A stretch of DNA of 34,921 nucleotides from Clostridia bacterium (GTDB lineage Bacteria; Bacillota; Sulfobacillia; SLMV01), in the NCBI GenBank assembly GCA_003563985.1, contig PWSR01000050.1, forward strand, positions 1-34,921, read 5' to 3'. Shown one piece after another: positions 20,385-34,219 of this stretch. The notes beneath the pieces were generated by a model. The model worked only from the letters and a program-made list of their open reading frames with translations, made no database searches and was not told the origin of the DNA. Each line of letters starts with the position of its first letter. Position 1 is the first letter of the stretch. Position numbers and translations under genes: made by a program.

Positions 20385-20870
20385 TTATCGTGAATCTTCG
20401 GCATCTCGCATGACCCGGCGAATGACCCCGTCGGGAAACCCCCGGCCCTTCAAGAAACGATAATGCCGGGCCGCCACCTTGGGATCGGCGCGCAACACAT
20501 CGGGGTCCACCCCCCGTCCCCGCAGGGCATTTCGCGCCATGGCATCCTCGAGATCCGACGTCAATTCTTCGTCGACGATCCTGCGGGCCAACTCATCTTC
20601 GACACCCCGGTGCCGGAGGTCCCGGATCACCTTGGCCCGACCCGCGGGCTTTCGGGTCAACACGTGTTCTACGTACCGGCGGACATAGGACTCATCGTCG
20701 ACCAGGCGCAGTTCGATGAGTCGCGCCGCCGCGTCATCGACCGTCTCCCGTGCGTAACCCCGGGAGACGAGGCGATCGCGCAGCGCATTCAGGGGATAGT
20801 CCCGTCGCGTCAGAAGCCGAAAACAGTAGGCCAGCGCCTCCTTGACCGGATCCTGTCGGATATCGGACAC
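20385..20870 (-). CDS. recX: Regulatory protein RecX
   Basis: ALAYCFRLLTRRDYPLNALRDRLVSRGYARETVDDAAARLIELRLVDDESYVRRYVEHVLTRKPAGRAKVIRDLRHRGVEDEL...; immediately downstream of recA. Confidence 0.93.
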   Translation of the reverse strand: MSDIRQDPVKEALAYCFRLLTRRDYPLNALRDRLVSRGYARETVDDAAARLIELRLVDDESYVRRYVEHVLTRKPAGRAKVIRDLRHRGVEDELARRIVDEELTSDLEDAMARNALRGRGVDPDVLRADPKVAARHYRFLKGRGFPDGVIRRVMRDAEDSR

Positions 20871-20873
20871 GGG

Positions 20874-21893
20874 TTAGCTCTCCTCCTCGTGCTCGGGTCG
20901 CAGCCGACGCTCCAATCCGACCTTCTCCAAAATAGCCTTCTCCAGCGTTTCCTTTTCCTCCGGGTTTTCCGATAGCCAGGCCTTCGCCTTTTCCCGTCCC
21001 TGGCCCATCCGTTCCTCGCCCAGGGAGTACCAGGCTCCGGCCCGGGTAACGATCTCGTGTTCCACGCCCAGGTCCAGCAAATCACCTTCCCGGGAGATAC
21101 CGGTACCATACATCAGGTCGAATTCCGCCTGCCGGAAGGGCGGCGCCACCTTGTTCTTCAGTACCCGGGCCCGCACCTTGATACCCAAACTGGTACTTCC
21201 ATCCCGCAGGGATTCGATCCGGCGCACATCGATGCGCACCGAAGAGTAGAACTTCAGGGCGCGACCACCCGGGGTTACCTCCGGACTGCCGAACATCACG
21301 CCGACCTTCTCGCGGATCTGGTTGATGAAGATAACGATCCCGCGGGACTTGGAAATTGCCCCGCTCAGCTTCCGCATGGCCTGGGACATCAACCGAGCCT
21401 GGAGGCCAACGTGGCTATCCCCCATCTCCCCTTCGATCTCGGCCCGCGGCACCAGCGCGGCGACGGAATCGATGATCACGACATCCACGGCGCTGCTGCG
21501 CACCAGGGCCTCTGCGATGTCCAGCGCCTGCTCTCCCGTGTCCGGTTGGGATATGAGAAGGTTGTCCACGTCGACGCCAATCCGGCGCGCGTAGCTGGCA
21601 TCCAGTGCGTGTTCTGCATCGATGAATGCGGCAAAGCCACCGTGCCGCTGCGCCTCGGCAGCCACGTGCAGAGCAACCGTCGTCTTACCCGAAGCTTCCG
21701 GACCGTATATCTCCACGACGCGGCCCCGGGGAAGTCCCCCGACTCCCAGTGCAATGTCCAGGGATAGGCACCCGGTGGGAATCACTTCGACGTCTCGGTA
21801 CGCCTTCGATTCCCCGAGTTTCATGATGGCGCCCTTGCCGAACTGTCGTTCGATTTGCGAAATCGCCATATCCAGAGCTTTTTCCCGCTCCAA
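20874..21893 (-). CDS. recA: Recombinase RecA
   Basis: [23 protein letters not shown]...[35 protein letters not shown]...; TTG 21893 with AGGAGG SD at 8-nt spacing. The GTG at 21902 overlaps the SD. Confidence 0.97.
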
Positions 21894-21916
21894 TGGGAAC
21901 ACCTCCTAGGTGGCAT

Positions 21917-21940: not shown

Positions 21941-22507
21941 CTACCCGAACCCCAGGGATAGCTTCTCCATAACGGTGTAGGTCGGAGCACCTCGGCTCAA
22001 CTGGCTCCGAATCAGCAGTACCTCCTCCACGGGATCGATCCCCCACAACCTATCCGCGTGGGACGACACGATTTCCGATACGTCCGCCGGTTCTCCGCGG
22101 AACCGTCCCACGGTGACGTGGGGGTGAAAGGATCGATCGTCCTTTCGGAGGCCGTATTTCTGCGTCAATACCTCCACCAGGCCTTCGGCGAGATTTGTCA
22201 GACGATCCGCACCGTCCGATACCCCGCCCCACAAAACCCTCGCCCGTTGGGGCGTCGGGAAGGCTCCGGCTCCCTCTACCCGCATCTGGAAGGGAGATTC
22301 CGCCGCGGTTACTTCGCGGAGATCCCGGGCCATCGGTTTCACGAGGTCGGGATCCGTGTCCCCCAGAAACACCAGGGTTAGATGACGCCGCCCGTGGGCC
22401 ACGGGCCGAAAGGTTCTCCCCCACCCTCGACTCGCCGCTGCGGTGAGTTCATCGAGTCTTGCATCGGTATCCCGCCGGAGATCCGCGGCGATAAATAGAC
22501 GATACAT
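21941..22507 (-). CDS. thpR: RNA 2',3'-cyclic phosphodiesterase ThpR
   Basis: MYRLFIAADL...HLTLVFLGDTD...FHPHVTVGRFR: two HxT motifs of the 2H family. Confidence 0.92.
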   Translation of the reverse strand: MYRLFIAADLRRDTDARLDELTAAASRGWGRTFRPVAHGRRHLTLVFLGDTDPDLVKPMARDLREVTAAESPFQMRVEGAGAFPTPQRARVLWGGVSDGADRLTNLAEGLVEVLTQKYGLRKDDRSFHPHVTVGRFRGEPADVSEIVSSHADRLWGIDPVEEVLLIRSQLSRGAPTYTVMEKLSLGFG

Positions 22508-22524
22508 TGTGTACCTCCACCCCG

Positions 22525-22553
22525 AGTATCATCGAACATGTGTTCGCCGTCAA
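22525..22553 (-). promoter_or_regulatory. Sigma70 promoter of thpR-recA-recX with LexA/SOS box (22533-22546) in the spacer
   Basis: Minus strand TTGACG - 17 bp - GATACT; spacer contains CGAACACATGTTCG (perfect CGAAC-N4-GTTCG palindrome). Confidence 0.85.
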
Positions 22554-23797
22554 GACGATCTCGACAAACGACGCCTCAAGCCCACCAGGGCATATATCGC
22601 GCTCCTCCGGCGAACCCCGGCCCGGTCACCGGTAAAGAAATGCCCCTCGGTCTCGGTTCCCCATGGGCCACTAAAGCCGAAACATACCGTGCCCACGGGT
22701 TTCTCCTCGGTCCCCCCTCCGGGTCCCGCGACACCGGTGACGGAGATCCCGATGTCGGCACCGAGGACGTCCCGTGCCCCCTCGGCCATGGCCCCGGCCA
22801 CGGGTTCGCTTACCGCACCCCATTCGATCATCAGGGATTGGGGTACGCCGAGGAGATCCTCCTTGGCCGCGTTGGAATAGGAGACGATGGCCCCGAGGAA
22901 GTAGTCTGAGGCGCCCGCAGCATCGGTCAACATACCCGACAGGGATCCACCGGTACAGGATTCCGCCAGGGCAATGGTCAGGCCTCGTTCGCGCAAGTCT
23001 CTTCCGACGGAGGCCGATAGTGAATCTCCGTCGTATCCGTAGATGTATTCCCCGATCCGGCGGCCGATCTCCCCCTGGAGAGCTACGAAGGTCTCGTTCG
23101 CCTCCTCGGCATCCGCAGCCCGAGTCGTCAGGCGCACCCGCACGGTGCCGGTCCCGGAATAGAGGGCGATGGTCGGCTGGGTCTGGGCATCGATGAGGTC
23201 CGCCAGCTTGTCCGCAACGGTGGACTCTCCGATGCCGGCGGTGAGTATTTCCCGCGAAAAGAGGCGAGTTTCCGGAATGAGATCTCGGGATCGCAGGAGG
23301 GGTAACAGGGCTTCTTCGAACATCGCTCGCAGTTCTCCCGGCGGCCCGGGTAGGCAGGCCACCGAACCCACATCGTCGGCCAGGTAGAACCCCGGGGCGG
23401 TGCCGCGATGGTTCTCGAGGGCGATGGCGCCCTCGGGCATCTGGGCCTGGCTCTCGTTGTTCGCCGTCATCTCTACGGTTCTGTTGCAAAAGTACGTTCG
23501 AATGCGGTCGAGCAAATCCGGATCCGTAACCAGGGGTCGCCCCCAGGCCGCCGCCGTCGCCTCCCGGGAGATGTCATCCGCCGTGGGACCCAGTCCACCG
23601 GTAACGAGGAGCAAATCGGATCGCTCCCGGCCAACGGAAAGGGTCTCGCATAGCCGCGCGAAATTGTCGCCGACGGTGATGTGGTGATAGACGTCGATAC
23701 CCAGCTCGGCACACCGGCTCGATAGGTAATGGGCATTGGTATTGAGAACTTCGCCCAAGAGGAGTTCTGTTCCCACCGCTATGATTTCTGCTCTCAT
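22550..23797 (-). CDS. cinA: CinA-family competence/damage-inducible protein
   Basis: MRAEIIAVGTELLLGEVLNTNAHYLSSRCAELGIDVYHHITVGDN...TGGLGPTADDIS...LAESCTGGSLSGMLTDAAGASDYFLGAIVSYSNAAKEDLLGV. Confidence 0.96.
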   Translation of the reverse strand: MRAEIIAVGTELLLGEVLNTNAHYLSSRCAELGIDVYHHITVGDNFARLCETLSVGRERSDLLLVTGGLGPTADDISREATAAAWGRPLVTDPDLLDRIRTYFCNRTVEMTANNESQAQMPEGAIALENHRGTAPGFYLADDVGSVACLPGPPGELRAMFEEALLPLLRSRDLIPETRLFSREILTAGIGESTVADKLADLIDAQTQPTIALYSGTGTVRVRLTTRAADAEEANETFVALQGEIGRRIGEYIYGYDGDSLSASVGRDLRERGLTIALAESCTGGSLSGMLTDAAGASDYFLGAIVSYSNAAKEDLLGVPQSLMIEWGAVSEPVAGAMAEGARDVLGADIGISVTGVAGPGGGTEEKPVGTVCFGFSGPWGTETEGHFFTGDRAGVRRRSAIYALVGLRRRLSRSS

Positions 23798-24099: not shown

Positions 24100-24333
24100 C
24101 TATTCTTCGAGGGTCCCGACTACCGGGAAACGCTCCACCAGGTCCATCCCGTGGGGTGCCGCCTTCATTGCTTCCGTGAGATCCCTACCCACCGGATGGG
24201 TCACCTGGTGTCGCCCGTCCCGCCAATGGGAGCTGGCGCTCACATCGTAAACCTTTCCGTCCACGGCGACGCACGCGGGCCGACCCTCTTTTCCATCGCA
24301 TCGGGCGAGTTCCTCGGGTGTGACCACTTTCAC
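24100..24333 (-). CDS. Cytochrome b5-like heme-binding domain protein
   Basis: VKVVTPEELARCDGKEGRPACVAVDGKVYDVSASSHWRDGRHQVTHPVGRDLTEAMKAAPHGMDLVERFPVVGTL; small prokaryotic cyt b5-like pattern. GTG start with GGAGG upstream. Confidence 0.8.
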   Translation of the reverse strand: MKVVTPEELARCDGKEGRPACVAVDGKVYDVSASSHWRDGRHQVTHPVGRDLTEAMKAAPHGMDLVERFPVVGTLEE

Positions 24334-24353
24334 GGAATCCACCTCCCCGATAG

Positions 24354-24384
24354 GGGGAGGGAAGCCATCGCCGCCTCCCTCCCC
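24354..24384 (-). terminator. Hairpin between the DPS-like and cyt b5-like genes
   Basis: GGGGAGGGA - 13 nt - TCCCTCCCC, 9-bp perfect arms; the G-rich arm abuts the SD of the next gene. Confidence 0.45.
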
Positions 24385-24396
24385 GTATCCACATCG

Positions 24397-24948
24397 CTAG
24401 CGGAGGAACTTGCCGGCGAAGGGAGAGGTGTCGCCAGTGCGCAGATAGTGTCCAGAGGGACCCTCGCCCAGGAACTCGGAGAACCACGCCTCGTGTTCGA
24501 TCTCTTCGTGGAGAATCGCCAGGGACAGGTCATAGGTCCGATGATCCTTGCCGGCGGTTAGATTGCATATGTGGGTGTATCCGCGAACGGCACACCGCTC
24601 GGCTTCTACCAGCACCTGCAGCATTGCCTTCACATCGGTGGGATCCGAGGGTAGATTGGCGGGTGGGCAAGCGGAAATGTCATGGAATTCCTTCATGTCG
24701 TCGGGGAGCTTGCCTCCCAATTCGTAGATCCTCGGGACCAGTGCCTCGAAGTGGTTGCGGTCCTCGATCCGGGCCGCCTCGGCGATGGGTTTGATTCCCT
24801 CGCCCTCGAGGCCGATCAAGTTTACGCGGAGGATGGTGTAGTAATAGAAGGTCGTCAGTTCCGCTGCGGCATTCTTGACCAGCAGTTCGACCAGCTCGTC
24901 CACGTTGATACCCGTCTTCTCAACCATTTCCCTCGCTACTTTGGCCAT
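24397..24948 (-). CDS. DPS-like ferritin-family protein (DPSL/thioferritin type)
   Basis: VDELVELLVKNAAAELTTFYYYTILRVNLIGLEGEGIKPIAEAARIEDRNHFEALVPRIYELGGKLPDDMKEFHDISACPP...VEAERCAVRGYTHICNLTAGKDHRTYDLSLAILHEEIEHEAWFSEFLG; E/ExxH ferroxidase pattern and paired Cys. Confidence 0.8.
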   Translation of the reverse strand: MAKVAREMVEKTGINVDELVELLVKNAAAELTTFYYYTILRVNLIGLEGEGIKPIAEAARIEDRNHFEALVPRIYELGGKLPDDMKEFHDISACPPANLPSDPTDVKAMLQVLVEAERCAVRGYTHICNLTAGKDHRTYDLSLAILHEEIEHEAWFSEFLGEGPSGHYLRTGDTSPFAGKFLR

Positions 24949-25014
24949 GGTAGTTCCCCCCTGATTCGGTTTGGGTCCGGTGGGAGGAGCGTGCATCGAG
25001 AATCCCTCGACTTC

Positions 25015-30725: not shown

Positions 30726-30754
30726 TTGTCCGGGAACATATGTTCGCTTACAAT
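30726..30754 (+). promoter_or_regulatory. Sigma70 promoter of mrfAB with LexA/SOS box (30733-30746) in the spacer
   Basis: TTGTCC (30726-30731) - 17 bp - TACAAT (30749-30754); spacer contains GGAACATATGTTCG, whose reverse complement CGAACATATGTTCC fits CGAACRNRYGTTYC. Confidence 0.8.
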
Positions 30755-30770
30755 TGAAGGGGGTGATGGC

Positions 30771-33032
30771 GTGAACTTGGATCAATTGATCGACACGTTG
30801 CGCACGGACAAGGAATTCGGGGAGCGGGTTACGGGATGGGTCGAGGTAGCCCCCCGTGCCCCCGCGTACGGAGATCTCCCCGCCGTCGACGAACGACTGG
30901 CCTCCGCGATGAAACGGCGCGGAATCCTTCAACCCTATTCCCACCAGGCCCAGGCCATGGAGGGCCTACTCCGCGGCGAGAACGTCGTGGTTGCCACCCC
31001 CACGGCCTCAGGCAAGAGCCTTTGTTACATCATCCCCGTGCTCGAAGAGATACTACGCAAGCCCGAAGCCCGGGCCCTATTCCTATATCCGACGAAGGCC
31101 CTGGCGCAGGATCAGCGGACGGAAATCGGCGAGTGGATCGAAGCCATCGGAGGCGGTATCGCCAGTTTTACCTATGACGGAGACACCCCGGCCTCCTCGC
31201 GTCGCAGCATCCGCCGCGCCGGGCAAATCGTCATCACCAACCCGGACATGTTGCACACCGGGATCCTACCCCACCACACCAAGTGGGTACACCTCTTCGA
31301 AAACCTCGAGTACGTGATCATCGACGAGTTGCATACGTATCGAGGTGTGTTCGGAAGCCACGTGGCCAACGTGCTGCGCCGACTGCAGCGGATCGCACGC
31401 TTTTATGGGTCCTCACCCCGCTTTGCCGCATCCTCGGCCACCATCGCCAATCCCCGGGAACTCGCCGAAAGCCTGGTCGGGGAGCCCTTTCGCCTGGTGG
31501 ATGAATCCGGAGCCCCCCGGTCCAGGAAACACACCGTATTGTACAATCCCCCGGTGGTGAACCGAGAGCTGGGGATTCGCAGGAGCTCGGTCCTGGAGGC
31601 CCGCGACATCCTGCGACAACTCCTCGGAAACGGCATCCAGACCATTGCCTTCGTGCGGAGTAGGATCCAGTCCGAAGTACTCCTGTCATACCTGCGCGAG
31701 TCGCTTCCCCGCGTCAACATCCGCGGCTACCGGGGTGGATACCTCCCCGCGCAGCGACGCGAGATCGAACGCGGCCTGCGCACCGGGGAAATCCGTGGCG
31801 TGGTGGCGACCAATGCCCTGGAGCTGGGGGTCGATATCGGGTCCCTGGATGCGGCGGTACTGGTGGGATACCCCGGCACCATCGCCAGTGCCCTGCAGCA
31901 AATGGGGCGGGCCGGCCGTGGCGACGCCCCTTCCCTGGCGGTCATGGTGGCTTCCTCGAGCCCCCTGGATCAGCATCTGGTGACGCATCCCGACTATTTC
32001 TTCGATCGATCCCCGGAGCGCGGCCTGGTGCAGCCGGACAATCTGCACATCCGCGTCAGCCACCTCAAGTGCGCTGCCTTCGAGCTCCCCTTCACCGCGG
32101 AAGAAACGGAGGGAGATTCGGACCTGCGGGAAATCCTCGAGTATCTTTCCGAAACGAGAATCCTGCATCCCTCGGACGATCGGTGGCACTGGATGACCGA
32201 AGGGTTCCCCGCCCAGGACATCAGCCTACGATCGGCCTCGACGGGCAACGTGGTCATCGTTGACCGCACGGAACCCGAGCCCCGGGTCATCGGCGAGGTG
32301 GACGAGTTCAGCGCGCCGATGCTGTTACACGAGGAGGCCATATACATCCACGAGGCCGTACAGTACCAGGTGGAAGAGCTGGACCTCGAGGAGCGAAAAG
32401 CCTTCGTGCGCCGGATCGACGTGAACTATTACACCGATGCCACCTTCGCCGCCGACACGGCGGTTCTGGACGTCCTGCGCCGCGATGACCGCGAACTCGC
32501 CTCCCGATTCTTCGGTGAGATTCGGCTCACCGCGCAGCCAACGACCTTCAAGAAGATCCGTTTCGGCACCCACGAAAACCTGGGATGGGGCCGAATCCAC
32601 CTGCCGCCCCGGGAAATGCACACGACGGCCTACTGGATGACCCTGGAGCCGACCCTCACCGCTCGCTTCTCCCCCGGGGAAGTGGAATCCGGCCTCATGG
32701 GCTTGCGCAATCTCATGCTGGAGGTGGCACCGCTGTTCCTATCCTGCGACCGCAGGGATCTTTACGCCGTGGCGCAGATCCGATCCCCTTTCACGGGACA
32801 TCCCACCCTGTACCTGTGCGATGCGTACCCCGGGGGCGTCGGCCTCGGGGAGGCACTATTCGGCCTCGAGGCGGAGCTGCAAAGAACCTGCCTGCAGGTG
32901 GTGAGGGAATGCGTCTGTACCGACGGGTGCCCCTCTTGCATCGGTGCCCCGGCGGAGGTGGGAGCCAGTGCCCGCCGGATCGCCACCCGCATCCTGGCCC
33001 GATTGACCGGTGATCTGCGTTGTCTGGATTGA
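30771..33032 (+). CDS. mrfA: DEAD/DEAH-box helicase with C-terminal DUF1998/MZB four-Cys module (MrfA/YprA-like)
   Basis: QPYSHQAQAMEGLLRGENVVVATPTASGKSLCYIIPVLEEIL...IIDELHTYRGVFGSHVANVLRRL...QMGRAGRGDAPSLAVMVASSSPLDQ...CVCTDGCPSCIGAP. GTG start with AAGGGGG SD. Confidence 0.9.
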   Translation: MNLDQLIDTLRTDKEFGERVTGWVEVAPRAPAYGDLPAVDERLASAMKRRGILQPYSHQAQAMEGLLRGENVVVATPTASGKSLCYIIPVLEEILRKPEARALFLYPTKALAQDQRTEIGEWIEAIGGGIASFTYDGDTPASSRRSIRRAGQIVITNPDMLHTGILPHHTKWVHLFENLEYVIIDELHTYRGVFGSHVANVLRRLQRIARFYGSSPRFAASSATIANPRELAESLVGEPFRLVDESGAPRSRKHTVLYNPPVVNRELGIRRSSVLEARDILRQLLGNGIQTIAFVRSRIQSEVLLSYLRESLPRVNIRGYRGGYLPAQRREIERGLRTGEIRGVVATNALELGVDIGSLDAAVLVGYPGTIASALQQMGRAGRGDAPSLAVMVASSSPLDQHLVTHPDYFFDRSPERGLVQPDNLHIRVSHLKCAAFELPFTAEETEGDSDLREILEYLSETRILHPSDDRWHWMTEGFPAQDISLRSASTGNVVIVDRTEPEPRVIGEVDEFSAPMLLHEEAIYIHEAVQYQVEELDLEERKAFVRRIDVNYYTDATFAADTAVLDVLRRDDRELASRFFGEIRLTAQPTTFKKIRFGTHENLGWGRIHLPPREMHTTAYWMTLEPTLTARFSPGEVESGLMGLRNLMLEVAPLFLSCDRRDLYAVAQIRSPFTGHPTLYLCDAYPGGVGLGEALFGLEAELQRTCLQVVRECVCTDGCPSCIGAPAEVGASARRIATRILARLTGDLRCLD

Positions 33033-34219
33033 GGGACCGGCTCAGGAGGATGGATCCGGGCCCGACACCGCCGAAGGCCGTATCCCGGAGGGAGGACCGG
33101 GAGATCCCCCGGGGATTCCGCGCCCTGGAAGATTCGGGGGGCACCACCTATATCCGATCGAGCGAACATCCCCGGGCCAACCTGGACCCGGAAGCCCTGG
33201 AGGGTCTGGCCCTCCTCACCCATCCCGAATGCCCTCCGCAATCTCCCTCGGACCTGGTGGCTCTCGATCTCGAGACCACGGGGCTGTCCCGGGGCGCGGG
33301 GACCCTGGCATTTCTGACGGGGCTCGCCGTCATCGAGGAGCATCGGGTGCGAACCCTCCAATACCTGCTCCCGGACCCCTCGATGGAGGCACCGTATCTC
33401 GAAGCCATCTCCCGGGAACTGCGTGAACGCGGGCACCTGGTTACCTTTAACGGAAAGGGTTTCGACCTGCCGATACTGTCGGGACGTTTCACGTTGAATC
33501 GGATGACTCCCCCGACCTTCATCGGTCACCACGACCTCCTGGGACCGGCCCGCAGGCTCTGGTCCAGTTCCCTTCCCAGTTGCCGGTTGACCGCGTTGGA
33601 AGGCAGCGTTCTGGGCCGGGATCGCGATGGGGACGTTCCCGGATCCGAGATCCCCGCCCGCTATTTCGACTACCTGGCGGACGGTCGCTCCGATCTCCTG
33701 GATGAAGTGGTTCACCACAACGAACTGGACCTTCTCGCCACCATCGATTTGCTGTTTCGGATGGTGCGCCCCCTGTCCCGTCCATCGGCGAGCCCGGAGC
33801 ATCTCGCCATGGCGCGAATGGCGCAGGCGGCCGGCCGCCAGGAGATAGTGGAGGGGCAGCTTAAAGCCGCTACAGCGCGCGCCCGGGACGATGCAGAGTA
33901 CCTCGAGTCCCTCGAGGAGCTGGCCCTATATCACCGGCGGCGAAGGGATTATGCCCGGGCGGTACCACTTTGGATGGTGATGGTTTCGCTGATGGAATCC
34001 GGCGCGGGACGCATATCGCGGGACGTTGCACCATATGTGGAGCTGGCCAAGTTTGCCGAACATCGGTTGCGCGACCCCAGGCGCGCCTTGCGATACACGG
34101 AGCGCGCACTGCATTTCGATCCCGGGGGAAGCCGCTCCCGTTCCACGGATACGGTAGCACTGCATCACCGCCGGAATCGCCTGCTTCGACGGCTAGGCGA
34201 AGGCGACGATGTCGACTAG
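33020..34219 (+). CDS. mrfB: Ribonuclease H-like exonuclease with C-terminal TPR-like region (MrfB/YprB-like)
   Basis: DLVALDLETTGLSRGAGTLAFLTGLAVI...ELRERGHLVTFNGKGFDLPILSGRFTLNR...HNELDLLATIDLLFRM; DEDD-type exonuclease motifs; overlaps mrfA by 13 bp. Start uncertain. Confidence 0.85.
   Translation: MSGLRDRLRRMDPGPTPPKAVSRREDREIPRGFRALEDSGGTTYIRSSEHPRANLDPEALEGLALLTHPECPPQSPSDLVALDLETTGLSRGAGTLAFLTGLAVIEEHRVRTLQYLLPDPSMEAPYLEAISRELRERGHLVTFNGKGFDLPILSGRFTLNRMTPPTFIGHHDLLGPARRLWSSSLPSCRLTALEGSVLGRDRDGDVPGSEIPARYFDYLADGRSDLLDEVVHHNELDLLATIDLLFRMVRPLSRPSASPEHLAMARMAQAAGRQEIVEGQLKAATARARDDAEYLESLEELALYHRRRRDYARAVPLWMVMVSLMESGAGRISRDVAPYVELAKFAEHRLRDPRRALRYTERALHFDPGGSRSRSTDTVALHHRRNRLLRRLGEGDDVD

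Follow-up and report, generated by a model that had tools for sequence, protein, structure and literature searches.

A predicted LexA-controlled promoter ahead of thpR-recA-recX in a Clostridia bacterium

Related damage-responsive loci

Control of recA by LexA is textbook knowledge. In the LexA/DinR regulons of Gram positives the recA box lies directly before recA, and in Clostridium difficile the regulon includes lexA, recA, ruvCA and uvrBA (PMC4234289). The locus described here shares with these regulons the operator type (GAACN4GTTC in Bacillus) and overlapping core genes, but here thpR comes first. In Deinococcus, cinA, ligT (thpR) and recA follow one another just as here and form an operon of the DdrO/IrrE regulon, the radiation-desiccation response, in which radiation induces both LigT and RecA. 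An operator precedes ligT-recA in D. proteolyticus, and of the two start sites in D. deserti, both upstream of cinA, one is induced and the other is not (PMC5552922, PMC8533742, PMC1978522). The repressor there is DdrO, with the RDRM motif and relieved by IrrE cleavage, whereas here the site is a LexA box, and the Deinococcus operator is usually found before cinA rather than before thpR. Since that operon is already known to be damage-induced, the idea that ThpR would be co-induced with recA, put forward in a first-pass annotation of this DNA, is not new. Mycobacterial recA likewise has one LexA-bound and one further promoter, although both are described as damage-responsive (PMC8151990), whereas the second promoter predicted here, in the thpR-recA gap, would be basal. 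In Salmonella, the rsr-yrlBA-rtcBA operon also links RNA 2′,3′-cyclic phosphate chemistry to RecA/LexA-dependent damage signalling, but its control is indirect, via RtcR and a prophage, and ThpR is absent from it (PMC9879122). A search of open-access papers gave no case in which LexA is the regulator and thpR comes first, a combination that appears to be new. The operator is of an ordinary LexA type, and its gene context is unusual but has a precedent.

The locus is found on a contig of 34,921 nucleotides, analyzed over its whole length (the window, contig C190), from a fragmented metagenome assembly of an uncultured Clostridia-like bacterium, 1.88 Mb in size and 91% complete. Among named records the nearest are assemblies titled “Clostridia bacterium”, with isolates called, e.g., CSSed165cm or B1Sed10, and names of this kind belong to soda-lake sediments. 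Along the minus strand, rimO is followed by a ferritin-like and a cytochrome-b5-like gene (24100–24996) and then by cinA, thpR, recA, recX, rny and ymdB.

The operator and promoter at the cinA-thpR junction

The putative promoter, P-SOS (22525–22553, minus strand), is of the sigma70 type, with a TTGACG −35 element at 22553–22548, a spacer of 17 nt and a GATACT −10 element at 22530–22525. The −35 is carried by the last codons of cinA (22550–23797, minus strand; NF001813 at 492 bits vs. a cut-off of 379, with all three CinA Pfam domains) and contains its TGA stop (22552–22550), while the operator CGAACACATGTTCG (22546–22533, minus strand) sits wholly inside the spacer. The positions given in the first-pass annotation for the promoter, the spacer palindrome and the overlap of −35 and stop codon were all exact on recheck. 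The palindrome had also been called perfect, which is true of the outer six bases on each side (CGAACA/TGTTCG) but not of the two central ones, which are asymmetric. The thpR ATG is at 22507 with a GGAGG in the leader, and if transcription started ca. 7 nt past the −10 the leader would measure about 11 nt, the length that had been predicted for the 5′ UTR. Between 18.0 and 24.2 kb we found two sigma70-like promoters, TTGACG-N17-GATACT being one of them, against 1.5 expected by chance, so that the promoter match proves nothing on its own and the case for P-SOS rests on its conservation in relatives.

This conservation was assessed in the seven genomes of the family that contain the locus (G000 and G002–G007); G001, of the same genus, is outside the count, its assembly containing neither recA nor thpR. 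In all seven the palindrome is retained at the cinA-thpR junction, a check that had been proposed for the box, 39–55 nt upstream of thpR and with at most one mismatch. It always lies between a −35 of the TTGAC or TTGAT type and a −10-like hexamer (e.g., GATACT, AATACT or TATAGT), so both promoter elements are kept in 7/7. The ThpR proteins of these genomes are just 33–58% identical to that of the window, which argues that the promoter and operator have been maintained by selection.

Pattern searches over the 1.88-Mb genome, with the reversed pattern as control, gave a consistent picture. The consensus CGAACRNNYGTTYS was found at six sites and the reversed pattern at none. Five of the six are located upstream of DNA-damage genes, namely lexA (contig C196), thpR-recA-recX, uvrB (C77), dinB (C37) and mrfA-mrfB (C190, at 30733), and the sixth is within an unrelated gene. 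The genome encodes a single LexA of 209 aa in which a VTAG (Ala-Gly) cleavage site can be recognized, as can the regions of the catalytic serine and lysine, i.e., a cleavable-looking repressor whose own gene carries the operator that is also found inside the thpR promoter. The lexA genes of the family have CGAACNNNNGTTT upstream, as do most others of the class. These regulon-wide sites, the intact-looking LexA and the conservation in the family support the proposal of an SOS promoter, and CGAACACATGTTCG is almost certainly a LexA operator of the Gram-positive type. The motif is short, and one might suspect a palindrome that arose by chance or a binding site for some unrelated regulator. However, CGAACRNNYGTTCG occurs once in the window against 0.007 expected from dinucleotide shuffles, and exact CGAACN4GTTCG twice against 0.04 (300 shuffles). 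Such a reading would also have to account for a site conserved family-wide in register with the −35 and −10 elements and for the recurrence of the motif at lexA, uvrB and dinB, and we consider it hardly credible.

The site at mrfA-mrfB lies in the window itself. This second LexA-type box, CGAACATATGTTCC (30733–30746, minus strand), matches CGAACRNNYGTTYS and is ca. 25 nt ahead of the GTG at which mrfA likely starts, upstream of a pair (30726–34219, plus strand) coding for a helicase with the MrfA Zn-binding domain and an RNase-H-like exonuclease. The arrangement suggests that this mrfA-mrfB mitomycin-repair pair is under LexA control. A BshC-like gene (28953 to about 30653) is located on the minus strand. 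A nurA-like gene facing the box was considered and ruled out, Pfam and NCBIfam identifying the genes as BshC-like (minus strand) and MrfA (plus strand).

Outside the family comparable arrangements were found only in G028, with CGAACAGATGTTCC 94 nt ahead of thpR, and G016, with CGAACTCCTGTTTG 76 nt ahead. In the other 22 of the 24 loci analyzed from class members outside the family, neither thpR nor recA is preceded by a consensus LexA box; for 19 of these 22 the search covered extended regions, most of them reaching several kb upstream. A search farther upstream, in 20 genomes of the class from outside the family, located a box in G028 alone, again before thpR. Given the 22 loci without a box, a LexA promoter before thpR is mainly a family trait, and the arrangement is, by these comparisons, lineage-limited. 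In the class loci L178–L196, all outside the family, recA seems to be without a nearby consensus LexA box, and lexA usually has one. This suggests that recA in much of the class is outside the SOS regulon or has a diverged box.

The thpR-recA-recX unit and a probable second promoter

The first gene behind P-SOS, thpR or ligT (21941–22507, minus strand), codes for a protein of 188 aa that by sequence is an RNA 2′,3′-cyclic phosphodiesterase. It matches TIGR02258 at equivalog level (114.7 bits vs. a cut-off of 65.7) as well as PF02834, and has the two HxTx motifs of the 2H phosphoesterases (HLTL and HVTV), with H42/T44 and H130/T132 invariant in the alignment; structures of relatives have been solved (1iuh, 5h7e, 4qak and 5ldi). 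Then comes recA (20874–21902, minus strand; TIGR02012, 544 bits vs. 325), listed from a GTG at 21902, although a TTG at about 21893, 8 nt past an AGGAGG (21907–21902), is the likelier start. Only 3 nt past its stop begins recX (20385–20870, minus strand), which scores above the cut-off for PF21982/PF02631 and below the curated cut-offs of the RecX models. From thpR to recX we found no convincing terminator and no competing consensus promoter, a weak terminator-like hairpin within thpR (22254–22241) being at chance level. This supports thpR as the first gene of a tightly packed unit, thpR-recA-recX, whose members would be co-transcribed.

The interval between recX and rny (20351–20115, minus strand) has a promoter of its own, TTGACA-N18-TAAAAT (20351–20322), and, from 20142, a strong terminator made up of GGCCGAGTCCCATGGACTCGGC and the T's behind it. 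All seven family genomes have a terminator like it at this place, and G002 is 84% identical over 296 nt. There was no match in Rfam, and an identification as 6S RNA was rejected, the 6S match of this genome being on another contig. The interval is a candidate for an uncharacterised small RNA of about 200 nt.

The gap between thpR and recA, about 25–50 nt in the family, contains an extended −10 element, TGGTATATT in the window (21925–21917, minus strand), directly before recA and without a LexA box. At the equivalent position the pattern TGNTAWWWT is present in all seven family genomes, as TGGTATATT in G000 and G002, TGGTATAAT in G006 and G007, TGTTAAATT in G005 and TGGTAATAT in G003 and G004, compared with ca. 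1% of 90-nt background windows. Most other members of the class have a sigma70-like promoter before recA (score of at least 9 out of 12, background 4%), usually ending in TATACT, and no LexA box was found alongside these recA-proximal elements. Thus, recA probably also has a basal, LexA-free promoter in the gap, and transcripts other than the SOS one probably carry recA as well. The first-pass annotation had described an SOS-controlled operon headed by thpR; thpR does lead a packed unit and the box is conserved, but that description has to make room for a promoter that recA very likely has of its own. In the simplest interpretation an old basal promoter serves recA itself, and the family has, in addition, a LexA-controlled one located one gene upstream.

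The conservation of TGNTAWWWT in the seven gaps, together with a promoter-like element ahead of recA throughout the class, could also mean that recA is transcribed mostly from its own extended −10, the LexA promoter serving mainly thpR with minor read-through. We regard this as unlikely, with a gap of so few nucleotides, no terminator separating the genes and LexA control being usual for recA; moreover, the sole other box near recA is one within its coding sequence. That box, CGAACGACAGTTCG (21852–21839), is the second exact CGAACN4GTTCG of the window and is located early in recA, where it might act as a further LexA operator blocking transcription into the gene. However, it encodes the conserved IERQF, relatives have only partial matches that come from the same codons, and its inner 3′ position is an A instead of a pyrimidine, so that it fails the sharper motif CGAACRNNYGTTYS. 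A functional operator at this place is therefore quite improbable; CGAACGACAGTTCG is probably a codon coincidence, with a weak intragenic LexA site as the alternative.

Our preferred model, then, is a LexA-covered P-SOS giving a thpR-recA-recX mRNA plus a LexA-free second promoter, to which we assign a probability of roughly 85%. A LexA dimer bound in the spacer would cover the sigma70-type promoter at the end of cinA. RecA assembled on single-stranded DNA would trigger the self-cleavage of LexA and give RNA polymerase access to P-SOS, and the derepressed promoter would then yield a short-leader mRNA carrying thpR, recA and recX. The extended −10 in the thpR-recA gap would probably supply the basal RecA needed for damage sensing. 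LexA binding, start sites, co-transcription and damage induction at thpR-recA are all predicted here from sequence.

Linkage of thpR to recA and the role of ThpR

Of the class genomes, 35 have a ThpR match, and in 32 of them (counted by hand from coordinates) thpR and recA are neighbours, the exceptions being G014, G037 and G039. Of 80 named loci retrieved through their similarity to ThpR, about 30 are followed on the same strand by recA at a distance of no more than 500 nt, and these include records labelled Deltaproteobacteria, Myxococcales, Ignavibacteriae, Bacteroidota, Planctomycetota, Neomarinimicrobiota, Synergistaceae and Acidimicrobiia. Adjacency across the class and several phyla hints at a functional link between the two genes.

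The thpR-recA order is far commoner in the class than the box, found in few genomes, as would be expected if selection had acted for LexA control of recA and thpR were a passenger. The passenger view is about what the arrangement is for and is compatible with the LexA-promoter model; we would give it an even chance. On the other hand, the two genes stay linked in several phyla, and in Deinococcus an unrelated repressor governs the damage induction of the pair (PMC5552922), facts that suggest something beyond a chance neighbourhood. ThpR might instead be a genuine SOS effector, opening 2′,3′-cyclic-phosphate RNA ends (or related nucleotides) formed during damage, a tentative proposal that we think somewhat unlikely. 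If true, the need for such an effector would explain both the linkage across phyla and the placing of thpR under two unrelated damage repressors, LexA here and DdrO in Deinococcus.

As of 2017, what LigT does physiologically in E. coli was described as unknown (PMC5283653). The locus is of interest in that this RNA-end enzyme heads the predicted SOS transcript here and, in Deinococcus, is damage-induced together with recA under a different repressor. The convergence of two unrelated regulators on the thpR/recA pair, together with its linkage across phyla, makes a role of ThpR in damage recovery a testable idea.
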